DNA of 64,000 bases from Solidesulfovibrio fructosivorans JJ]. Its GTDB lineage: Bacteria > Desulfobacterota > Desulfovibrionia > Desulfovibrionales > Desulfovibrionaceae. Below, in pieces: positions 6,907 to 52,062 of the stretch. The stretch lies in assembly GCF_000179555.1 (NCBI RefSeq), contig NZ_AECZ01000003.1, positions 62,001-126,000 on the forward strand, written 5' to 3'. The position numbers and the translations under genes are program-made. The notes beneath the pieces are model-generated. The model made no database searches, was not told the origin of the DNA, and saw only the letters and a program-made list of their open reading frames with translations. Positions within the stretch are counted from its first letter, which is position 1. Every line of letters starts with the position of its first letter.

Positions 6907-9576
6907 GTGTTCGGCACGATAAAGCGCGTACTGGCGGGGCTTTTTTCCGGTGGGGAGCCGGAGGACGCTTCGGCTGAGTCCGGGGAAGCGATCCAGGCCG
7001 AATTCAAGCGCCGCTACCACCACTTCAAGCTGCTTTTAACGGCCAACAAGAAGGCCCTGGAGATCATGTCCGAGATGGAGGAGGCGCTGCATGGCCGGCG
7101 CACTTTCGGCATGTCGTTTATCCGGGCGCATTCCACGGCCGTCTCGGTCAACGTCTACAAGATGGTGGAGCATTTAAACGCCATCGCCCCGGACACGTAC
7201 GCGGTCCTGTACGCGCGTCTCAAGGATATCCAGCGGGGCATCGGCGAATGCCTCCAGCAAAACGCGCCCGAGGGATCGGAGGCGCTGGTGGTGCCTTTTG
7301 CCAAGGCCGGCCGCCACATGGCCGATGCGGTCGGCGGCAAGGTGGCCGGGCTCGGCGAGATCGTGCGCCGCACGGGGCTGCCCGTGCCGCCGGGTTTCGC
7401 GGTCACGGCCCGGGCCTACCACCGGCTCATGGAGGAAAACGACCTCGTGGACGAGGTCAATCGGCTGCTCCAGACCGCCGGCCCCGACGACCAGGCCAAC
7501 CTGCTGATCCTCAGTTCCCGCATCCGCAACGCCATTACCGAGGCCAAGGTGCCGGACGACGTGGCCCGGGCCATCAAGGGGGCCTACAAGGAACTGTGCG
7601 CGCCCTTCGGCCGGGAGTTGCCGGTGTCGCTGCGCAGCTCCGCCTTGGGCGAGGACGAGGCCGGGCAGACGTTTGCCGGCCAGTTTTCCTCCAAGCTCAA
7701 CGTGTCCGGCGAGGACATCCTCACTTCCTACAAGGAGGTCCTGGCCAGCAAGTACAGCCCGCAGGCCATGACCTACCGCTTAAGTCGCGGCATCCCGGAC
7801 GAGGATGTGGCCATGTGCGTGGGCGTCATGGCCATGGTCGACGCCGCCTCCGGCGGGGTGATCTATTCCCGCAACCCGCTGGACATCCGCGACAACGCCA
7901 TACACATCCACAGCGCCTTCGGCCTGCCCAAGTCGGTGGTGGACGGGTCGGTGGCGACCGACGAGTTCGTGATTTCCCGCGACGAGCCGCCGCGCCTTGT
8001 CGCGCGCCATATCCGGGACAAGGACCAGGTGTTCGTGTGCCTGCCCGGGGAAGGCGTGTGCCGTACCGAAACCGCCGGTGAGCGTGCCGGAGAGCCGAGC
8101 ATCAGCGATGCCCAGGCCCTGGAGCTGGGCCGGGCGGCGGTGGCCCTTGAAACCATGTACGGCGCGCCGGTGGATGTGGAATGGGCCTTGGACACGGCCG
8201 GCAAGATCCAGTTTCTCCAGTGCCGGGAGCTGGTGCAGCTGCCGGGCGGCGGGGACGGCGACGCGCCCCGGCGGGTGCATGGCGAGACGCTGGCCGCCGG
8301 CGGGGCGACGGCCAGTCCCGGCGTGGGGTCGGGGCCGGTTTTCGTGGTGCGCCGTGAGGCCGACCTGCTGCGGTTTCCGCGCGGGGGGGTGCTGGTCAGC
8401 ATCGAAGCGCCGCCACGTTATGCCTCCATCATCGACCGGGTGGCGGCCATCGTCACGGAGAAGGGCGGCGCGGCCGGCCATCTGGCCAACGTGGCCCGGG
8501 AATTTCGCGTGCCGGCGCTCATGGGCCTTGCCGGCGCGACGCGGCTTCTGGTCCCGGAGGCCGTGGTCACGGTGGACGCCGATGGCCGGGCCGTTTATCC
8601 GGGCCTGGTGCGGGAGCTGGTCGAAGCGGCGGCCGTCGCCCGGGAGCCCGCTCCGGAACGCGTCACCCCCATGCACGCCATCCTGCGCCGGGTGATGGAC
8701 CGCATCACCCCGCTGTACCTCATCGATCCCAACGTGCCGGCGTTCGCCCCGGAAAACTGCCGCACGCTCCACGACGTGACCCGGTTTTGCCACGAGAAAT
8801 CCGTGACCGAGATGTTCGCCTTCGGCCAGGAGTTCCATTTCTCCAAGCGGGCGGCCAAGCAGCTCAAGTACAAGGGCACGGCCATGAAGTGGTGGTTCCT
8901 CAACCTCGACGATGGGTTCACCCATGACGTCACGGGCAAGTACGTCAAGCTCGAGGAGATCTGCTGCATTCCGGTCGGCGCGCTGTGGGACGGCATCGTG
9001 GCCGTGCCGTGGGAGGGGCCGCCGCCGGTGGACGGCCGGGGCCTTTTGTCCATCATCGCCCAGGCCTCGACCAACCCGCAGCTGGAGACGGCCACGCATT
9101 CGTCCTTCGCCGAGCGAAACTATTTCATGATTTCGAGCAATTATATGTGCCTCAGCTCGCGCTTCGGCTTCCACTTCTGCACGGTGGAGGCGCTTGTGGG
9201 CGAGCGGCCCCAGGAGAACTACGTCAGCTTTCAGTTCAAGGGCGGGGCGGCGGAATATTCGCGGCGCCGGCGTCGGGCCGAGTTCGTGGCCGAGATCCTG
9301 GAAGTGCGGGGCTTTGCCGTGGAGGTCAACGAGGACGCGTCCTTCGCCAGGCTCGGCGGCGGGGCCGTGCCGGAGATGCTGACGGCGCTTATGGTCGTCG
9401 GCTACATGCTCATGCACACCCGCCAGCTCGACATGATCATGCACAACGAGCCGCTGGTGCAAAGCTACAAGCGGAAGATCCTGGCCGACCTGGAGACGGT
9501 GGTCGGATTGCCGGGCCATGTCATGCCGGCCTGCCAGATTTCCGAGGCGGACGCGGAGGCCCAAACGAGCGTATGA
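6907..9576 (+). CDS. PEP-synthase-like protein: ATP-grasp plus phosphohistidine domain, no PEP/pyruvate barrel
   Basis: An 889-residue protein (GTG 6907, preceded by GGGGG; ATG 6868 is an alternative). After a helical region of about 130 residues comes the pyruvate-phosphate-dikinase N-terminal ATP-grasp domain (about 140-440): GGKVAGLGEI, RSSALGEDEAGQTFAGQF, VDVEWALD and IQFLQCRE. The swivelling phosphohistidine domain follows (about 470-560) with EKGGAAGHLANVAREFRVP, in which the phospho-acceptor His is present. The expected C-terminal TIM barrel that converts PEP and pyruvate is absent; about 310 residues of unrecognised sequence take its place. It may be a phosphotransfer or regulatory relative of PEP synthase, acting on an unknown substrate in the cytoplasm. 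The 3' end overlaps the next, convergent gene by 56 bases. Confidence 0.8.
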   Translation: MFGTIKRVLAGLFSGGEPEDASAESGEAIQAEFKRRYHHFKLLLTANKKALEIMSEMEEALHGRRTFGMSFIRAHSTAVSVNVYKMVEHLNAIAPDTYAVLYARLKDIQRGIGECLQQNAPEGSEALVVPFAKAGRHMADAVGGKVAGLGEIVRRTGLPVPPGFAVTARAYHRLMEENDLVDEVNRLLQTAGPDDQANLLILSSRIRNAITEAKVPDDVARAIKGAYKELCAPFGRELPVSLRSSALGEDEAGQTFAGQFSSKLNVSGEDILTSYKEVLASKYSPQAMTYRLSRGIPDEDVAMCVGVMAMVDAASGGVIYSRNPLDIRDNAIHIHSAFGLPKSVVDGSVATDEFVISRDEPPRLVARHIRDKDQVFVCLPGEGVCRTETAGERAGEPSISDAQALELGRAAVALETMYGAPVDVEWALDTAGKIQFLQCRELVQLPGGGDGDAPRRVHGETLAAGGATASPGVGSGPVFVVRREADLLRFPRGGVLVSIEAPPRYASIIDRVAAIVTEKGGAAGHLANVAREFRVPALMGLAGATRLLVPEAVVTVDADGRAVYPGLVRELVEAAAVAREPAPERVTPMHAILRRVMDRITPLYLIDPNVPAFAPENCRTLHDVTRFCHEKSVTEMFAFGQEFHFSKRAAKQLKYKGTAMKWWFLNLDDGFTHDVTGKYVKLEEICCIPVGALWDGIVAVPWEGPPPVDGRGLLSIIAQASTNPQLETATHSSFAERNYFMISSNYMCLSSRFGFHFCTVEALVGERPQENYVSFQFKGGAAEYSRRRRRAEFVAEILEVRGFAVEVNEDASFARLGGGAVPEMLTALMVVGYMLMHTRQLDMIMHNEPLVQSYKRKILADLETVVGLPGHVMPACQISEADAEAQTSV

Positions 9577-10717
9577 AGCGCCGGTCGATCCAATCCTTGA
9601 GCGCCATGCACCACCGGCCTTCGAGGACCAGCGGCCCCTGGCGCAGGATCGCCCGGCCGTCGCCGCAATTGAGCAGCGCCAGATAATCCGTGCCGGTCCG
9701 GCGAAAGGGAGTCAAATTCCGGCCGGTGAGGCGGGCCAGCAGGTTGGCGCACAGGACCGGCCCCTGGCGCACGGCGTAGACCCCGGCCCGGGGAAGCGGC
9801 TTCGGCGCGAAATGGACGCAGTCGCCGCCGCCGAAGATGTCGGGATAAAGCGGGCTTTGTAAAAAGGCGTTGACCGAGAGCCCTCCGTCCGGGGACAGGG
9901 TCAAGCCGCTTCGGGCGAAAACGCCGGGCGGGCGCGTACCCGTGGCCACGAGCAGCATGTCGCAGGAAAGCGACCCGCCGCCGACAAGCATCACCCGTCC
10001 CCCGTCGAACCGCTCCACCCGGTCGCAAAGGACCTTGGCCCCCCGGTACGTGAGGGAGGCATGGGCCAGCCGCCGCGCCCGCGCCGGCCAGCCCGGCAGC
10101 AGCCCGCGCCCGGCCACCACTGTCACCAGCGGTTTGGTGACGCCCAGGCCGGCAAGGAGCCCGAGCGCGTTGCCCGCCACCTCGAAGGCCGAGGCCCCGC
10201 CTCCGGCCACCACCACCCGCACCGCCTCCCCGGCTTCCACCCGGGATTCGATGGCGCATCTGGCCGCAAGCAGGTTTTCGATGGGCTTGACCGTGCGGAC
10301 GCCCTCGCCCGCGACGGGAAACGGCGCGTCGACCACGCTGCCGAGGCCGAAACTCGCCACGTCGTAGGCAAGTTCCCGGCCGTCCTCCAGAACAAGCCCT
10401 TTTCCCTCCGGATCGATGCCGGTCACGCGGCCCTGGACAAAGACATGCCCGAACGCGCCGTTCGCCCGTGCGGGGGGAAAGCGGGAGGCACCGCGCGTAT
10501 GGCGAGCGCCTGCCGACAACATCGCCTCGATATCGAAGCGCAGGTCCTCCAGGGCATAACGACCGGAAAGCATGCCCGGGCCCATGCCGGAATAGGCGAG
10601 GAACGGACCGGGCGCGACGCAGACGACGTCGATGCCGGCATCGTCAAAGACACCAAGCCGGGACAGGGTGAAGAGGTGGGCGTGGCCGCCGCCGGCCAAG
10701 ACGAGTCGTTTGCGCAT
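9521..10717 (-). CDS. FAD-dependent pyridine-nucleotide-disulfide-type oxidoreductase
   Basis: A 398-residue flavoprotein. It starts MRKRLVLAGGGHAHLF, a GxGxxx-type FAD-binding strand of the variant (GGGHAH) seen in the NADH-dehydrogenase-like domain sometimes fused to selenophosphate synthase. A second Rossmann motif VVVAGGGASAFEVAG near residue 145 should bind NAD(P)H, and LLVATGTRPP plus FGGGDCVHF complete the flavin site. No redox-active CxxC is obvious, and no transmembrane segment is seen. It may act as a soluble or peripheral NAD(P)H:acceptor oxidoreductase. A longer frame to 10849 starts inside an inverted repeat and is rejected. Confidence 0.8.
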   Translation of the reverse strand: MRKRLVLAGGGHAHLFTLSRLGVFDDAGIDVVCVAPGPFLAYSGMGPGMLSGRYALEDLRFDIEAMLSAGARHTRGASRFPPARANGAFGHVFVQGRVTGIDPEGKGLVLEDGRELAYDVASFGLGSVVDAPFPVAGEGVRTVKPIENLLAARCAIESRVEAGEAVRVVVAGGGASAFEVAGNALGLLAGLGVTKPLVTVVAGRGLLPGWPARARRLAHASLTYRGAKVLCDRVERFDGGRVMLVGGGSLSCDMLLVATGTRPPGVFARSGLTLSPDGGLSVNAFLQSPLYPDIFGGGDCVHFAPKPLPRAGVYAVRQGPVLCANLLARLTGRNLTPFRRTGTDYLALLNCGDGRAILRQGPLVLEGRWCMALKDWIDRRFIRSFGPPRPPRKSGRPA

Positions 10718-45089: not shown

Positions 45090-45842
45090 TCATTTAAGGC
45101 CGATAGGAGCGCCTGAGGCAAACGACGGCTCATGAAGCGGGAGAACGATGTCCGCCGCGTCCCGAATTCGCCGCAAAATGTCGTAGGCGGCGTAGGTATT
45201 GACGCAGGTGCCCGGCGGGATGACTTCCATTTCCCGGGCCGTCACAGACGTCGGCGGAAACAGGTTTTCGCGGATGACGCAAAAGCCGGTGATGACGGCT
45301 AATCCAGCCGGAGTGTCCACAAACACGGACATGCCGCCTTCCGTATGGGCCGGGGTATGTACCATGCGCAGACCGGGAACAATTTCGGTGTCTTCGGTTA
45401 AGGACACCATCTGCCCGGCTTCCGCCACGTCTTCGATGTATTCCTCGTTATAGCGGTAATCCAGGGGGTGCGGGTTCCGTGCGTGCGCCAGCTCCCTTTC
45501 GTGGACATAAAACAGGGCGTTCTCGCACAAGCTGTCATTTTCACAATGATCGTTGTGAAGATGGGTGTGCACTACCACATCAACGTCGGCGGGCGTCAGG
45601 CCGAAACGGGCCAGTCCCGCAGCAAAGCCATGGATCGCCCCCCCGATGGCCGCCTCTCGGGCTTCGGAAACCACGGGACGCATTTCCCCGGTATCCACCA
45701 GGATACGCGTATCCCCTCCTTCCAGATACCAACCGTAGATGGGAATGGTATACGGCTTCCCGTACTCGAATTGGTACGTCATCATTCCCTTGTCGAATTC
45801 CTTGGTTCCCAACACGATGGGATGGATCACAAACGTGCTCAC
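45090..45842 (-). CDS. metallo-beta-lactamase-fold hydrolase (AHL-lactonase-like)
   Basis: A 250-residue protein with the metal site HTHLHNDHCEND (HxHxDH) plus later ligands in MVHTPAHTEGGM and LHEPSF, closest in pattern to N-acyl-homoserine lactonase-like enzymes. It would hydrolyse a lactone or thioester in the cytoplasm. GTG 45842, five bases after GGAGG, is preferred over ATG 45908. It lies downstream of the CGGC/DUF364 operon with a 165-base gap and may be a separate unit. Confidence 0.85.
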   Translation of the reverse strand: MSTFVIHPIVLGTKEFDKGMMTYQFEYGKPYTIPIYGWYLEGGDTRILVDTGEMRPVVSEAREAAIGGAIHGFAAGLARFGLTPADVDVVVHTHLHNDHCENDSLCENALFYVHERELAHARNPHPLDYRYNEEYIEDVAEAGQMVSLTEDTEIVPGLRMVHTPAHTEGGMSVFVDTPAGLAVITGFCVIRENLFPPTSVTAREMEVIPPGTCVNTYAAYDILRRIRDAADIVLPLHEPSFASGAPIGLK

Positions 45843-46007
45843 GACATCCTCCAAATTCCGGCATCCCTCTCGCCTGTTCGATTTGTCTTCCGCGAACTTT
45901 GCACTCATTTTCAGGAAACCGGATTCGCCGGCACATTCAAACTGTCCCGTGCACCGATGACAGTGCTCTAAATCATGCTTGGCTTAGGCATCAATTTCAG
46001 GAACAAC

Positions 46008-46376
46008 TTATTTCGGCCTGTATTCATGAGGAAGATGCGCGGTCCCTTTTACGCAAGGGATACCGGCTTCACGGGCGATTCGAGACAACAAGCTATCGCT
46101 GTCCGCACAAAACCCGTTTCCATTGACCCATTTTCCTTCTTCCTTGTGCGCGAACGTGCAGGTGCACCAGTGCAGAATTTCCGCTCCCTTGGCTTTCAGG
46201 ACCTTTGCCAATGCCACGGCGCGGTCGCCAGGGCAGCGGCATGTCATGACGCCGACAAGTTCAGGATGGTCGGTCCCCGCAAAACCTTGGGAACCACTGG
46301 CAAGACAGGAAAGGCAGCCGGTGAGGGGGCACGTGGTTTCATTTTTCTCGCACCGGATCAATCCGATTTTGGTCAT
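46008..46376 (-). CDS. CGGC-domain-like protein, diverged copy
   Basis: A 122-residue Cys-rich protein starting MTKIGLIRCEKNETTCPLTG. It resembles CGGC proteins (proposed metal binders), but the namesake CGGC is TCRCPG here. Other Cys clusters are CLSC, HWCTC and GIPC. AAGGAG seven bases before ATG 46376 supports the start. It is the last gene of the seven-gene operon. Loss of CGGC suggests an altered ligand preference. Confidence 0.75.
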   Translation of the reverse strand: MTKIGLIRCEKNETTCPLTGCLSCLASGSQGFAGTDHPELVGVMTCRCPGDRAVALAKVLKAKGAEILHWCTCTFAHKEEGKWVNGNGFCADSDSLLSRIAREAGIPCVKGTAHLPHEYRPK

Positions 46377-46424
46377 GGCCGAACTCCTTGTAATCAACGG
46401 CGATTGTCGGGCGTTGTTTCCAAC

Positions 46425-47156
46425 CTATTGTCCGTTCTTGAAAATGGTCAGCCGTTTGACGCCCTGTATCTGCCTGTAGTTTCCCCCCTGGCTGACGCAG
46501 CGAAGCACCTTGTCAGGTTCAGAAACCACGGTTCCGCACAAGGCATCCACCCTGTGATCGAACAGCAGCGGCGTGAACGGCACCGAATCGCCCAGCATGA
46601 GCACGAATGCGTCGGGTCGGCACAGGCGGATGAGCCCGTCAAACGTATGGTTGGTGATGGAGGTGCCGGTAATGGCCACGACATCGGCCTGTGGCAGGAA
46701 CTCTTCAGCCTGTTCGGGGCCGAAATCGCCTTCGTGGGGATTGTTTTCCAGAACCCAGAGGTTGGCGGCCTGTTGTCGGACCTTGGGAAGGAAGGGAAAA
46801 TGGCCGATGACCGCCACGTTTTTTTCGGTCCCCTTTTCCAGGAGGATGTCTCCGGCATTGCGCTCCACCATGACGGACTCGTCCACGGGCAGGAGGGAAT
46901 TGATGGTGGCCATGCCAATGGCCGCTTCCAGCAGGCTTTGCGAATGCACCAGGGAGACAAGTTCCTCGGCGGTTTTTTCCAGAAGGAAACCTGGTTCCGC
47001 CACAAGGGGCGGTTCTTGGCGCAAGGCATCCTTGGGCAGCGTCGCGGCCAGCCCGCAACGCCGGGTGACCACTGCGGTATGGAATACGCCCTGGCGAATA
47101 TCCATGACCGGACAATCGTAGTCGAGCACGCGTGTGAGTTCTTCAAGCAATGTCAT
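46425..47156 (-). CDS. DUF4213/DUF364 protein, copy 1 (putative metal/chelate binding)
   Basis: A 243-residue protein. An enolase-N-like DUF4213 part (about 1-100: GMATINSLLPVDES) is followed by a Rossmann-like DUF364 domain (about 110-240) with VAVIGHFPFLPKVRQ and VVAITGTSITNHTFDGL. The family is predicted to bind heavy metals or related ligands and is common in anaerobes; function is unproven. Translation signal AAGGA precedes the start. Paired with a second DUF364 gene 46 bases upstream. Confidence 0.82.
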   Translation of the reverse strand: MTLLEELTRVLDYDCPVMDIRQGVFHTAVVTRRCGLAATLPKDALRQEPPLVAEPGFLLEKTAEELVSLVHSQSLLEAAIGMATINSLLPVDESVMVERNAGDILLEKGTEKNVAVIGHFPFLPKVRQQAANLWVLENNPHEGDFGPEQAEEFLPQADVVAITGTSITNHTFDGLIRLCRPDAFVLMLGDSVPFTPLLFDHRVDALCGTVVSEPDKVLRCVSQGGNYRQIQGVKRLTIFKNGQ

Positions 47157-47202
47157 GAACGTTCCTTGTGCTTGGTTGTTTCCGGAAGGAAGGAGCAAAA
47201 GC

Positions 47203-47931
47203 TCAAAGGGCCTTGGCGCAAAACCGTTCCCAACCCATAAGTTCCGCCGCGCCGGCGATGGTCGTGCCGTAAAAGATGATCGGGCGGTCATCGAGAAACG
47301 CACCCACGGTATCGTTGGCCAGGGTGGATCCCGTAACCACGAGCAGATCGGCCCGAGCCAGGGCCTCGTCCTTCCGGTCCGGCCCGAGGATCTCGGTGTC
47401 GTATTGGACCGTGCCGATGTTGTCCGGGTCGAGATCAAGCACCTTCAGGGCAAACCGTTCGCTCAGAGCCTGGATGATCTTGGGCTGGAATCCGACCTGC
47501 GTGATACGGACGTCGCCAAAACGCTCGCTGATGTAGTGGCTGAATTTCGCGGCGCATTCATTGGGTTCCTTGTCGCGGCAATGGATGGTGCGGTCGCACA
47601 GCCCCAGTCCCCGAACCGTGGCGTTGACCGAAGCCACGAACACCGCCCGGCGGAAGTTGTTTTCCAGCGGCATCGCGGCGACATCGGCCAGGGTTCTGGA
47701 AAAATCCCCGAAGCGGTCGGTGAAAGCCTGTCCCTTGGCACCCCGGAACTCGGCTTCCATGAGCCGTTCCTTGCCTTTTTGCAGGGGGAAATCCTCGCCT
47801 TCGGGATCGCCTATGGCCTCATGGACGGTCAGCGTTCTGGCCGTGACCGTGATGGGTTCACGAAGCAGATCGTGTTCCTCCCACAAGGCCAGGGCCTTGC
47901 GCCGGACAAGTTCAAGCGTTCCAGGTTGCAT
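47203..47931 (-). CDS. DUF364-family protein, copy 2
   Basis: A 242-residue paralogue of the next gene with the same DUF364 signature LLVVTGSTLANDTVGAFL and a Rossmann-like core DVRITQVGFQPKIIQAL. Its N-terminal part differs and includes two Cys (GLCDRTIHCRD). The two copies may form a heterodimer. AAAGGAG seven bases before ATG 47931. Confidence 0.82.
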   Translation of the reverse strand: MQPGTLELVRRKALALWEEHDLLREPITVTARTLTVHEAIGDPEGEDFPLQKGKERLMEAEFRGAKGQAFTDRFGDFSRTLADVAAMPLENNFRRAVFVASVNATVRGLGLCDRTIHCRDKEPNECAAKFSHYISERFGDVRITQVGFQPKIIQALSERFALKVLDLDPDNIGTVQYDTEILGPDRKDEALARADLLVVTGSTLANDTVGAFLDDRPIIFYGTTIAGAAELMGWERFCAKAL

Positions 47932-47991
47932 GGCATCACTCCTTTGGTGTGTACAGGGAGGCAACATTCAATGTTCAAGTTCAATACGTTT

Positions 47992-48435
47992 TCAGTCGTA
48001 TGCGGCCATGACGTCCGGAGCCTCCTGCAGGAGGGCTTCGGCTGCCGCAGCCATGTTGCTGTCCGCCCAAAACGGCAGTTTCCGATGCGCATTGAAATAA
48101 TTGAGAGGGATGGGATGTGTCCCGACCACCACGGGAAGGTTGTATTGGGATTCGATAAACGTCTTGAAATGGCTCAGGTGGGGGCATGGCGGGTAGCCGA
48201 CGACCAATCCGGTGGCCAGATGGACAACCGTCGCGCCGTTTTTGATAAATTCCGCCGGAACATATTCTACATTTCCCCCGGGGCAGCCGCCACAGGAGGC
48301 GAAACCGACAATGGATGCGCTTTGCTCCGCCGCGTAGCGGGCGAATCCGCCCCGGCGTTCCCGCAGAGCCCGAAAACACTTGCCGGCCCCGCAATTTCCG
48401 TACCGGGCGCAAATGATGATACCGATGCTGACCAT
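47992..48435 (-). CDS. CGGC-domain protein
   Basis: A 147-residue protein with an intact CGGC motif (VGFASCGGCPGGNV) and N-terminal Cys (ARYGNCGAGKC). CGGC proteins are short predicted metal-binding or redox proteins of anaerobes. AGAGGG supports the start. It lies 60 bases upstream of DUF364 copy 2 in the same operon, 73 bases after the DUF5320 gene. Confidence 0.85.
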   Translation of the reverse strand: MVSIGIIICARYGNCGAGKCFRALRERRGGFARYAAEQSASIVGFASCGGCPGGNVEYVPAEFIKNGATVVHLATGLVVGYPPCPHLSHFKTFIESQYNLPVVVGTHPIPLNYFNAHRKLPFWADSNMAAAAEALLQEAPDVMAAYD

Positions 48436-48508
48436 GTGTTTTCCCTCTCGACGGAACTCCCGTCACCCGGAACGGGTGGCGGGAGTCTCGCGTCATGGCC
48501 GTACGCCG

Positions 48509-48871
48509 TCAGCCCTGCGTGGTTTCATCGCCCATCTTGGCCAGGCGTGCCTTGATGGCCGCCAGGGAGCTTTCCATGGCCGTGGCCTGCTGCCGCAGAA
48601 ATTGCCGTTCCATCTCCGGCGTGGCCGCGCCGGAGACGGGCCCGACCGGTGCGGCGCCCATGAAATTCGAACGCCAAGCACCGCGAAAGCCACCCCGGTA
48701 GAAGCCGCCGCGACATCCCCGGCCAAAGCCGCCCTGGCCGAAGCCGAGCCGTTGTCCGCCCCACCCCGGAGCACTGGCAAACCCGGGAGTATTCGCCCCC
48801 GAGCAATAGCCCATAGAGCGTCCCGTCCCGGACCCCATTCCGTTAGGTCCTGTTCCATCACCGCGTGGCAT
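48509..48871 (-). CDS. DUF5320-family small protein
   Basis: A 120-residue protein opening MPRGDGTGPNGMGSGTGR, the DUF5320 hallmark, then a Gly/Phe-rich middle (GFGQGGFGRGCRGGF) and a C-terminal coiled coil (MERQFLRQQATAMESSLAA). DUF5320 genes accompany NifX/NifB-like and Mrp-type proteins in anaerobes and may bind a metal or Fe-S cargo. AAAGGAG seven bases before ATG 48871. Confidence 0.85.
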   Translation of the reverse strand: MPRGDGTGPNGMGSGTGRSMGYCSGANTPGFASAPGWGGQRLGFGQGGFGRGCRGGFYRGGFRGAWRSNFMGAAPVGPVSGAATPEMERQFLRQQATAMESSLAAIKARLAKMGDETTQG

Positions 48872-48896
48872 GATGCATCTCCTTTCGGTTAGAGGG

Positions 48897-49208
48897 TTAT
48901 GGCCTCGCCATGGCCGCCCCGCAGGCGGGGCAACGCATGGTGGCGCAGGCGACTCCCGGCGTATGCGGCGCTGTCTGGCCGCATTGCGGGCAGACGCATA
49001 CGTCCGTTCCTGGCTGCGACCCGCTCGAAACGCCAGGCGCATTACCCGATCGGCCAGCCTGACCCAGGCCGCGTCCCTGGCCTTGGCCGCATCGGCCACC
49101 GCCGCCCCGGCCGCCACCCTGGCCGCCTTGTCCCTGTCCTTTGCCTTGACCCTGACCGCATCGGCCCTGGCCACCTCTTCCACCTTGCGTCGCGCAACCT
49201 TGCCGCAT
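48897..49208 (-). CDS. Gly/Gln-rich protein with C-terminal zinc ribbon
   Basis: A 103-residue protein. Residues 8-60 are almost only Gly, Gln and Arg (GQGKGQGQGGQGGGRGGGGR), followed by a zinc-ribbon-like end with CPQCG and CPACG. The low-complexity part may be a flexible linker or metal-storage tail. GGAGG eight bases before the start. It lies directly after the DUF134-NifX regulator in the operon and probably works with it. Confidence 0.75.
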   Translation of the reverse strand: MRQGCATQGGRGGQGRCGQGQGKGQGQGGQGGGRGGGGRCGQGQGRGLGQAGRSGNAPGVSSGSQPGTDVCVCPQCGQTAPHTPGVACATMRCPACGAAMARP

Positions 49209-49281
49209 AAAAATATCCTCCAGTTAAAAGGGGATTCCCTTTGCTCGCGTCTGTTTTTCCCGCCACGAAGGCGCAGGGTGC

Positions 49282-49989
49282 CTATTGCCCATCATAAGGC
49301 CCCGATTCGTTGTTGGTTGCATCGGCAGCCAGTCGTCCCACCGCTTCTCCGGCCGTTTCCTCCATGGACAAGGGCACGTGCTCAATGAAATCCAGGCCGG
49401 CCCGGGATACTGCGTTGAGAAATCCAGGATGGGGAGGACTGGCCAGCAGCGCATTGGCCCCGGCGTCGCGCAGGTTGTGCAGAAGGTGCATCACGGCACC
49501 CCTTCCGCGACCGGTCTGCCGGGTATTTTCCAGGTACTGAAAGGACATGTCCGCCAAATTCACCAACGTGAATCCAGTGGCCCGGTCGAAGCGGGGAGCG
49601 ACCAAGGAATCCAGCGTCGGCCCTTGGCTTGGCACAGCCACGACATACCCTCCACCGACAGGCTGGGCCTCCTGAAGACTTGCCGCATCCTGAGGTTGCG
49701 CTACTTCATAATGGCCACCCTCGATGCGCAGCGCCGCGCCTCCAACCAAGGCCCGGGCGACACTCGTCCTGGCCTCAGCCAGCACCCGGCCAAACGTATG
49801 CCGGGAAACCCCCATGCCCACGGCGGCTGCCTCGGTGGTCAGCCCTTCCAGGTCAGCCAGACGCAACGCCTCCAGGCCCTCTATGGAAAGCCGGATTTCC
49901 ACGAGTTCGCACAGGGGAATGCCTTGTGGCTTAAAATAGGTTGCCTTGGGGATACCGGCCACCCACCGGCGCAGACGAGGGCGTGGCAT
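49282..49989 (-). CDS. DUF134 regulator fused to a NifX/NafY-type metal-cofactor domain
   Basis: A 235-residue protein. DUF134 (about 1-100) starts MPRPRLRRWVAGIPKATYFKP and has a sigma-like helix-turn-helix ALRLADLEGLTTEAAAVGMG. The second domain (about 115-225) is of the dinitrogenase iron-molybdenum cofactor (NifX/NafY/NifB-C) type: YVVAVPSQGPTLDSLVAPRF, FLNAVSRAGLDFIEH. A DNA-binding domain joined to a cofactor-binding domain suggests a regulator sensing a metal cluster. First gene of the operon; AAAGGAG supports the start. The two palindromes upstream are its likely sites. Confidence 0.88.
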   Translation of the reverse strand: MPRPRLRRWVAGIPKATYFKPQGIPLCELVEIRLSIEGLEALRLADLEGLTTEAAAVGMGVSRHTFGRVLAEARTSVARALVGGAALRIEGGHYEVAQPQDAASLQEAQPVGGGYVVAVPSQGPTLDSLVAPRFDRATGFTLVNLADMSFQYLENTRQTGRGRGAVMHLLHNLRDAGANALLASPPHPGFLNAVSRAGLDFIEHVPLSMEETAGEAVGRLAADATNNESGPYDGQ

Positions 49990-50004: not shown

Positions 50005-50022
50005 TTTGCTCAAAAGAGCAAA
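50005..50022. promoter_or_regulatory. operator 1 of the DUF134-NifX operon
   Basis: Perfect palindrome TTTGCTC-AAAA-GAGCAAA, 16 bases upstream of the start codon of the DUF134-NifX gene. Confidence 0.7.
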
Positions 50023-50061
50023 TAACGCCTCGCTGGCCCGAGTCAAGCCTGTTGGCGTTTT

Positions 50062-50488: not shown

Positions 50489-50548
50489 AACAAAAAAGTT
50501 AGTACAAAACAAAAAAGTTAGTACTTGACGGAAAATAAGCAACGCCTA
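50489..50548 (+). promoter_or_regulatory. promoter of the aldehyde dehydrogenase operon with 17-base tandem repeats
   Basis: AACAAAAAAGTTAGTAC occurs at 50489-50505 and again at 50508-50524, period 19 bases, ending exactly at a -35-like TTGACG (50525-50530); a weak -10 (TATTTC) follows after 16 bases. Tandem sites abutting -35 are typical of activator binding. Confidence 0.6.
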
Positions 50549-50595: not shown

Positions 50596-52062
50596 ATGGA
50601 CCAAGAAAAACAACGAGAGCAACCGCTCGCCGAAGTGGAAAAAGATTTTGGATTCGTCCCCAACCTGAAGGAAGAGATGGACCAGAACCGTCATGGCCTG
50701 TCGTTTCTCGGAGAAAACCAAATAAACGAACAACTTCACTCATTCGACCCCAGCAACGACGAGCTTGTCGGCAGCGTCGCGATTACTCCGTTGGAATCCA
50801 TTGGCGAAATTGTTGCCAGAGCACATTCCGCCGCCACCAGTTGGAAAAACATCGGCATAACCAGGAGAATGGAAATGGTTATGCAAGCTTTTGCCGGAAT
50901 GGAGCCTCATATGACTACGCTGGCTGAGTTGATCAGCCGAGAGATGGGCAAGGACATCCGCCGAGCCAATGGGGAAGTTTCCGGTACGGCGTATAGTGGC
51001 GTGTACATTGCCCAGGCGACAAATGAGGCCCTCGGGCCACGACGCCTAAGCGCTGAAACCCGTGTGGAATATAAGCCTCTTGGCGTGGCTGCGGTCATCT
51101 CTCCGTGGAACTATCCGCTGGCAATGGCCAATAACCTCATCGTCCCTGCACTGGTGGCTGGCAATACCGTGGTGTTCAAGCCCTCCGAGGAAACACCGCT
51201 TGTGGCAAAGGACTATGTCGATATTCTCAACAGAAATTTGCCCGAGGGAGTGTTAGAAGTTGTCTTTGGTGATGCGAAGCAGGGCAAGGCGCTTGTCGAA
51301 AGCGACGTAAATCTGGTCGCCTTCACGGGTTCAATGGCTGCGGGCAAGGACATCATGGCCAGGTCTGCCAGCGGGTTGAAACGTCTTATAATGGAGTTAG
51401 GCGGTAACGACCCTATGATTGTACTGAACGATGCCGACATCAATTCAGCAGCCCGATTCGCTGTTGCCAGTAGTTTTGAAAACGCGGGACAGATGTGCAC
51501 CTCAACGGAACGCATCTATGTGGATGCAGGCATTGCAGATGTATTTGAATCCCGTGTCGTCGAGATAGCCCGGACATACAGGGTGGGGCCATGGAACGAA
51601 CCGGGAGTCAACATTGGCCCCCTTGTGAACGCACGGCAGCATGCCAAGGTGCTGAAACACATCCAAGACGCCGAAGATAAAGGCGCAAGGATGCTTTTGG
51701 GAGGATCAGACCAACCTAAAAGATATATCCACCCCACGGTTATCGCGGACATGTCTCCCGAGATGCTCCTGGAGCGGGAGGAAACATTCGGTCCCGTGGT
51801 GGCCATGAGTAGGTTTAAAAATGTCGAGGATGCCATTGAACGTGCCAATGCAACCGATTACGGTTTGGGAGCCGTTGTCTTCGGAAAGGCGGAGGCAAAT
51901 CGTGTCGCGGATCAGGTAGAAGCGGGAATGGTCGGTATTAATCAAGGTGTCGGAGGAATGGGCGACGCCCCCTGGGTGGGGGCAAAGCAAAGCGGATTCG
52001 GCTTTCATGGATCTGCGGATGGACATCGCCTTTTTGCGCAGACAAGGGTGGTGAACAGTTGA
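50596..52062 (+). CDS. NAD(P)-dependent aldehyde dehydrogenase
   Basis: A 488-residue aldehyde dehydrogenase, succinate-semialdehyde type. Key parts are SPWNYPLAMANNLIVPALVAG, KPSEETP, the catalytic Glu in IMELGGNDP and nucleophile Cys in FENAGQMCTS. The first 28 residues (LAEVEKDFGFVPNLKEEM) do not belong to the fold and resemble the start of carboxymuconolactone decarboxylases (FGFVPN). TAAGGAG six bases before ATG 50596 makes this the true start. Followed, with a four-base overlap, by a radical SAM gene. Lower GC than the core genes suggests transfer. Confidence 0.9.
   Translation: MDQEKQREQPLAEVEKDFGFVPNLKEEMDQNRHGLSFLGENQINEQLHSFDPSNDELVGSVAITPLESIGEIVARAHSAATSWKNIGITRRMEMVMQAFAGMEPHMTTLAELISREMGKDIRRANGEVSGTAYSGVYIAQATNEALGPRRLSAETRVEYKPLGVAAVISPWNYPLAMANNLIVPALVAGNTVVFKPSEETPLVAKDYVDILNRNLPEGVLEVVFGDAKQGKALVESDVNLVAFTGSMAAGKDIMARSASGLKRLIMELGGNDPMIVLNDADINSAARFAVASSFENAGQMCTSTERIYVDAGIADVFESRVVEIARTYRVGPWNEPGVNIGPLVNARQHAKVLKHIQDAEDKGARMLLGGSDQPKRYIHPTVIADMSPEMLLEREETFGPVVAMSRFKNVEDAIERANATDYGLGAVVFGKAEANRVADQVEAGMVGINQGVGGMGDAPWVGAKQSGFGFHGSADGHRLFAQTRVVNS

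Follow-up and report, generated by a model that had tools for sequence, protein, structure and literature searches.

Seven consecutive genes on the minus strand, spanning positions 46008–49989 of a 64,000-nucleotide stretch of Solidesulfovibrio fructosivorans JJ (contig NZ_AECZ01000003.1, positions 62,001 to 126,000; hereafter the window), are read here, on balance, as an autorepressed operon for the handling of molybdenum (or of tungsten or thiomolybdate), which would be sensed by a regulator that joins DUF134 to an ORP-like domain. The proposal draws on comparisons at the level of sequence: the gene set and its order, the kinship of the domains, a palindromic candidate operator, and a link to molybdenum suggested by the neighbors of one DUF364 protein (D364a). 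From the regulator gene downstream, the operon consists of:

49282–49989, minus strand: DUF134-NifX/ORP-like fusion (PF02001, 72.4 bits; PF02579, 27.9 bits against a cut-off of 26.3)
48897–49208, minus strand: Gly/Gln-rich zinc-ribbon-like protein with two C-terminal CxxC pairs and a counterpart in locus L061
48509–48871, minus strand: DUF5320 protein (Pfam, 81.6 bits)
47992–48435, minus strand: CGGC1, with an intact CGGCPGGN motif (Pfam CGGC, 89.3 bits)
47203–47931, minus strand: D364a, of a DUF364 subfamily linked to ModABC (Pfam DUF364, 32.3 bits, cut-off 23)
46425–47156, minus strand: D364b, a canonical DUF364 protein with an N-terminal DUF4213 (Pfam DUF364, 133 bits, cut-off 23)
46008–46376, minus strand: CGGC2, with the motif altered to CRCPGD (Pfam CGGC, 73.4 bits)

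The region upstream of the regulator gene contains a palindrome that we propose as the operator of the operon, together with a second copy and two promoter-like hexamers:

50005–50022, minus strand: proximal candidate operator TTTGCTC-N4-GAGCAAA, ending 15 bases before the DUF134-NifX start codon
50064–50079, minus strand: distal, imperfect copy of the operator, TTTGCTCAAATGAGAG, ~58 bases upstream of the proximal one
50041–50046, minus strand: TTGACT, a −35-like hexamer between the operator copies, noted by eye
50019–50024, minus strand: TATTTG, a possible −10 hexamer overlapping the proximal operator, noted by eye

Within the 4.67-Mb genome of the organism, the palindrome occurs exactly twice, once before each of the two DUF134 genes, and a reversed-pattern control gives no site. 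Three sites are found when up to one mismatch is allowed. A wider regulon was rejected, the sole additional genome site (one mismatch) lying ~63 bases before a small called gene; a MoeA-like match (38%) ends ~1 kb from that site. Across 199 family genomes, the exact palindrome is present in 10, with 12 sites in all. All eight exact sites in the genus, found in 6 of the 14 genomes examined, lie no more than 76 bases from a DUF134 match, and none of the four sites outside the genus (L194–L197) has any operon query gene within 1.5 kb. The reversed pattern gives three sites in the same 199 genomes, so the four out-of-genus sites may be due to chance.

A palindrome of the looser form TNNNC-N4-GNNNA, with all five arm pairs, is present in 21 of 45 distinct DUF134 upstream regions (20 of 38 from Desulfovibrionales and 1 of 7 from Bacillota), against a mean of 0.34 and a maximum of 3 in 500 shuffles. 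These 45 regions remained from 48 after duplicates were removed; the motif rule failed to place 6 of the 30 DUF134 loci that were fetched automatically. Two palindromes lie 55–60 bases apart in seven of the upstream regions. The site classes vary (TGCTC, TGAAC and TGGGC), as expected if the DUF134 protein and its site co-evolve. Autoregulation of the operon is judged likely. In the literature searched, no DUF134 operator is described, and none of the papers listed for DUF134 or DUF5320 concerns DNA binding by its title.

The putative regulator carries PF02001 (DUF134) and PF02579 (Nitro_FeMo-Co) in one protein, both over cut-off. Its residues 117–201 have ORP of D. gigas (2wfb) as their best solved structure (E 2.3e-10), and a profile of 13 DUF134-NifX proteins, which includes a near-identical protein from genome G015, matches the same structure at E 9.5e-46. 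Proteins of the ORP family hold a non-covalent S2MoS2CuS2MoS2 cluster, according to the available text of PMC6345978. In G015, a 242-residue frame (L246:5407–6132) starts with DUF134, and its residues 126–242 are identical over 117 residues to the ORP of 2wfb; the sole differing aligned residue is 125, ahead of the first Met. This frame has an internal ATG with an AGGAG-type site at the DUF134/ORP junction. The junctions of the 13 fused genes contain 18 in-frame starts, of which 6 match five or more of the six ribosome-site bases (in 6 of the 13 genes, including those of the window and L061, which use GTG starts), compared with a background of 33 of 910 in-frame internal starts in nine loci; this test is rough, and the 13 genes are related.

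DUF134 is found in 106 of the 199 genomes examined, and no DUF134-ORP fusion is described in the literature searched. We tentatively suggest that DUF134-ORP proteins form a family of regulators whose ORP domain directly senses a molybdenum-sulfide(-copper) cluster and that, in several of them, an internal start also frees the ORP domain as a soluble competitor or carrier. In outline, the arrangement is like that of ModE-type regulators, which join a DNA-binding domain to a domain for a molybdenum ligand. The window regulator differs from them in having no TOBE domain, of the type named in the available text of PMC11980592, and has DUF134 and the ORP-like domain instead.

The second line of evidence concerns D364a, whose homologues occur in 28 of 119 family genomes, including that of S. 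fructosivorans. We mapped 108 loci, comprising these 28 and 80 from named genomes (the best 80 of 225 relatives), with some genomes represented twice (e.g., L042 and L067). Genes in the loci were called with a simple script that missed some of them; ModA, MoeA-like, TOBE and permease neighbors were checked, and other neighbors were named by eye. ModA and ModB both lie within 4 kb of D364a in 56 of the 108 loci (36 among the 80 named), and ModA, ModB or a MoeA-like gene does so in 68 (47 among the named). In the 74 loci where each flank reaches 4 kb or more, the corresponding counts are 44 and 49. Many D364a genes follow ModA, ModB and ModC, and frequent companions at Mod loci are MoeA-like, ~907-residue aldehyde-oxidoreductase-like and TOBE-plus-integrase-type genes. 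The ModA protein of one D364a locus reaches 182 bits with the NCBIfam modA profile, whose cut-off is 62.5. The S. fructosivorans genome has four modA matches, three of them over cut-off, in 4.67 Mb, which puts the chance of meeting modA in a random 8.7-kb stretch at ~0.7% by arithmetic from this genome only.

Some D364a loci lacking Mod genes have ORP-type, MOSC or MobA-like neighbors, and others nothing of that kind. Specifically, NUBPL-type ATPase and Nitro_FeMo-Co genes lie near D364a in L098, a MOSC gene in L106 and a MobA-like NTP transferase gene in L082. D364a also adjoins TauE/SafE-type transporter genes in L082, L070 and L073, of which only that in L070 was confirmed as TauE by Pfam.

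A tree of D364a (109 rows, 104 of them different) places the window protein with the DUF134-linked copies L033, L035, L061 and L062 and with L063, from a short contig, in a starred group of six. With the addition of two copies from genus g41 this becomes a starred group of eight, nested in turn in starred groups of 15 rows (5 Mod-linked) and 51 rows (37 Mod-linked); the DUF134-linked Bacillota copies L105 and L134 are placed elsewhere. The S. fructosivorans genome retains a ModA-type gene of the related kind on contig C19, where it has no D364a for a neighbor. The simplest account, as we infer it, has D364a moving out of a Mod operon and into a DUF134 operon in the course of this lineage. Molybdate transport operons that include a DUF364 gene (modABC-D364a) are found in Desulfovibrionaceae and Bacillota. 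The window protein sits among Mod-linked rows of the tree, and the Mod-linked copies from family genomes are mostly 49–60% identical to it (three are 40–41% identical). The window operon differs from the modABC-D364a operons in that its D364a is accompanied by a second DUF364 protein, two CGGC proteins and a DUF134 regulator.

A 2010 paper ties DUF364 to the transport of molybdate, tungstate and other metals by genome context (available text of PMC2954201), so the link between DUF364 and molybdenum is, in general, already published. That text makes no mention of the D364a subfamily, with its His-Cys...Cys motif, or of its place in a DUF134 operon. The sequence-only reading had put the system forward as a candidate undescribed one, which holds in the literature searched for the DUF134 operator and the DUF134-ORP fusion and does not hold for the association of DUF364 with metal transport.

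An AlphaFold2 model of D364a, with a predicted local distance difference test (pLDDT) score of 89.8, has the two-domain DUF364 fold, enolase-N-like and Rossmann-like, with 3npg and 3l5o as top matches. Both matches run along the length of the protein: PH1506 (3npg) at a Foldseek E of 9.5e-9, a template modeling (TM) score of 0.59 and 17% identity, and Dhaf4260 (3l5o) at E 1.4e-5, TM 0.51 and 13% identity. D364a carries an invariant His-Cys...Cys motif. The DUF364 alignments covered part of the loci (25, 19 and 42 sequences); in the 42 aligned D364a sequences, the invariant residues include N103, H117, C118, C126, G147, D166, T200 and N206, among others. D364b lacks the His-Cys...Cys motif. The paper on 3l5o proposes an enzyme that would act, in a cleft, on metal chelates resembling flavins or pterins (available text of PMC2954201). 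A separate DUF364 paralogue stands in a recurring Desulfovibrionales neighborhood with genes that, judged by eye, resemble YcaO, methyltransferase, DsrC and DksA genes, each cluster being found in 8–9 of the 20 loci fetched. All four or three of these kinds are present in L174, L179, L180, L182, L185, L186, L189 and L190, and some of them in L181 and L183; the copies from the organism's own genus (L171, L175, L177 and L178) share a different neighborhood.

Five cysteines of CGGC1 (C9, C15, C48, C51 and C84) are invariant in 22 aligned sequences. The CGGC1 model (pLDDT 92.8) found no match at E ≤0.001 in the fold search, lumazine synthase being the best at 8e-3, and a search of the PDB with its sequence alignment gave a best E of 0.14. 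Four genomes (G046, G004, G072 and G207) have ORP-type clusters in which CGGC and DUF134 genes are separated by ~4 kb, with NifX-type genes between them by eye, and CGGC2 homologues lie near a NifX-like gene in L298 (by eye) and a DUF5320 gene in L304. DUF5320 adjoins DUF134 also in L033, L035 and L062. A similar Gly/Gln-rich segment with CxxC pairs is fused to DUF134 in L236–L241 (by eye). From the cysteines and the gene company, our guess is that the CGGC proteins hold metal. The literature searched has nothing on a CGGC domain, family or protein, nor on DUF364 together with CGGC.

Open reading frames and a reading of the sequence place the seven genes in one run, with intergenic gaps, from DUF134-NifX to CGGC2, of 73, 25, 73, 60, 46 and 48 bases. 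S. alcoholivorans DSM 5433 (L061) has counterparts of all seven in identical order. The arrangement described in the sequence-only reading, with gaps of 25–73 bases, is thus borne out by the frames, the Pfam matches and the order kept in L061. The families named there stand for every Pfam-assigned protein, each judged against the cut-off of its own profile, with one correction: the gene at 47203–47931 encodes a diverged DUF364 protein (32 bits, DUF4213 unmatched). The Gly-rich protein matches no Pfam family over cut-off. An NCBIfam scan of the seven proteins returned a single DUF134 match, below cut-off. A sigma-70 scan of the operon gave no promoter and a terminator scan gave 3 sites against 5.4 in shuffles, so that only spacing and conserved order argue for co-transcription. 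The ratios of nonsynonymous to synonymous substitution rates (dN/dS) relative to L061 are, from DUF134-NifX to CGGC2, 0.25, 0.30 (the zinc-ribbon protein, from 50 codons only), 0.48, 0.15, 0.14, 0.20 and 0.09.

Parts of the operon recur elsewhere. The second copy in the organism's own genome (L033), like that in S. alcoholivorans (L062), is the smaller set DUF134-DUF5320-D364a; in G109 (L035), ~3 kb separates DUF134 and DUF5320 from D364a. Locus L034 of G069 has D364a next to D364b and, close by on the opposite strand, two CGGC genes; the Atribacterota loci L099 and L116 also hold the tandem pair, preceded there by a MoeA-like gene. The 4.67-Mb own genome holds two CGGC genes, both in the operon, as well as two DUF134 and two D364a genes. 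A predicted conservation of gene co-occurrence is therefore found for D364a-D364b, for DUF134-DUF5320-D364a and for CGGC with DUF134/NifX-type genes, and fails for the full set, which turned up in only two genomes.

Taken as a circuit, these parts suggest the following scheme, in which we infer DNA binding, repression, the ligand and all biochemical roles. The DUF134-ORP protein would bind the TTTGCTC-N4-GAGCAAA palindromes around the promoter and turn its own operon off, and a molybdenum-sulfide species, alone or with copper, would bind the ORP-like domain and relieve repression. Sulfate reducers make sulfide, which turns molybdate into copper-binding thiomolybdates. D364a and D364b may be soluble proteins that convert or carry the incoming oxyanion or its pterin-type chelate, and the Cys-rich CGGC, zinc-ribbon and DUF5320 proteins may hold the metal or hand it on. 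Molybdenum or tungsten is the likely metal, and a molybdenum-sulfide species as the specific ligand is a doubtful assignment. The earlier suggestion of metal or cofactor handling under a ligand-binding regulator is thus supported and narrowed to molybdenum (or tungsten) by the ModABC neighbors, the ORP-like domain and the candidate operator. The circuit is ModE-like in outline, and it has some parts in common with the orp system and D364a in common with modABC operons.

Likeness to the ORP system (D. gigas ORP, 2wfb; D. vulgaris Orp8 and the orp operons) is seen in the C-terminal domain of the regulator, which is closest to ORP among solved structures, and in the joint occurrence of DUF134, NifX-type and CGGC genes in ORP-type clusters of four relatives. 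Unlike the orp operon, the seven window proteins include no Orp3/Orp4, MinD/Mrp or MrpORP-type P-loop protein; the ORP-like domain is diverged and fused to DUF134, and DUF364 genes are added. No sigma-54 promoter was recognized, the best match agreeing with a consensus at 6 of 10 positions in 314 bases. We rejected the seven genes as the orp operon of this genome because they include no MinD/Mrp-type protein and a separate two-NifX cluster stands on contig C46. In that cluster (L314, G000:C46), a small TOBE-like gene stands ahead of two NifX-type genes and of ATPase genes that look Mrp-like and MinD-like, all named by eye except NifX.

Several observations weigh against an autorepressed molybdenum operon. 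On the side of the regulator, the window protein matches sigma-70 region 4 and helix-turn-helix families only weakly, all below cut-off. Its ORP-like domain departs from the consensus at some residues, with FGR changed to FDR and Nitro_FeMo-Co barely over cut-off; this diverged domain may have a different ligand or none. Exact operators are absent from four DUF134-bearing genomes of the genus (G025, G080, G097 and G226); three of them have the shorter TGCTCATATGAGCA 30–31 bases before the DUF134 gene. A strict TNNNC-N4-GNNNA palindrome is missing from 18 of 38 Desulfovibrionales and 6 of 7 Bacillota DUF134 upstream regions, and both palindrome rules, each giving 21 of 45, were fixed after the sites had been seen. 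As for the metal, ModA, ModB and MoeA-like genes are all absent within 4 kb of D364a in 40 of the 108 loci and in 25 of the 74 with full flanks. Neither D364a gene of the own genome adjoins ModABC, and the seven proteins include no substrate-binding protein, permease or ATPase of a modABC operon and no other transport protein. Tungsten cannot be told from molybdenum on this evidence. The complete seven-gene set is found in two genomes only (the window and L061), with no other among the 108 loci mapped, and synonymous divergence from L061 along 46008–48871 ranges from 0.056 (DUF5320) to 1.005 (CGGC2), which suggests recombination or separate histories.

This last group of observations is what would be explained by a mobile or decaying assembly of metal-related genes with no one common function, held together by a shared promoter. 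The flanks also differ between the window and L061, and a broken D364b piece lies beside an MBL gene in G109. The dN/dS values below 0.5 for all seven genes, the operator and gene order kept in L061, and the recurrence of sub-sets in other taxa speak against such an assembly, which we consider improbable. An operon devoted to tungsten instead of molybdenum, loading or sorting tungstate for tungsten enzymes, is judged to be at least as improbable. ModABC-type systems can carry both molybdate and tungstate. For D. vulgaris exposed to chlorate, genes for tungstate uptake and a putative aldehyde oxidoreductase that depends on tungsten are important, in the available text of PMC10102598, whereas ORP is reported as a molybdenum protein (available text of PMC6345978) and the one neighboring binding protein checked is a modA match, no search having been aimed at tungstate transporters.

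Somewhat easier to entertain, and still unlikely, is an iron-sulfur or copper stress module, in which the ORP-like domain senses Fe-S or copper, the CGGC, zinc-ribbon and DUF5320 proteins buffer soft metals and D364a has a side role. The spacing of CGGC and DUF134, ~4 kb apart in the ORP-type clusters of four genomes with MinD-type ATPases there (by eye), fits such a module. A stress module does not account for the ModA and ModB neighbors of D364a in 56 of 108 loci, or for the MoeA-like gene ahead of it in Atribacterota.

Two features flank the operon. An MBL gene at 45090–45908 was rejected as a member, there being no counterpart beside the operon of L061. In L187 (G109:C1:3115000-3134000, ~9243–10451), the broken D364b piece adjoins an MBL gene 89% identical to it, as if the operon had once stood there. 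On the other side, a direct repeat (two copies of AACAAAAAAGTTAGTAC) was seen by eye at 50490–50525, upstream of a plus-strand gene at 50596.

Should an ORP-like domain prove to do the sensing in a protein that binds DNA at a defined operator, the role of ORP would become testable by gel-shift titration. An autorepressed operon of this kind, if true, would give DUF134 its first function and would tie one subfamily of DUF364 to the handling of molybdenum.

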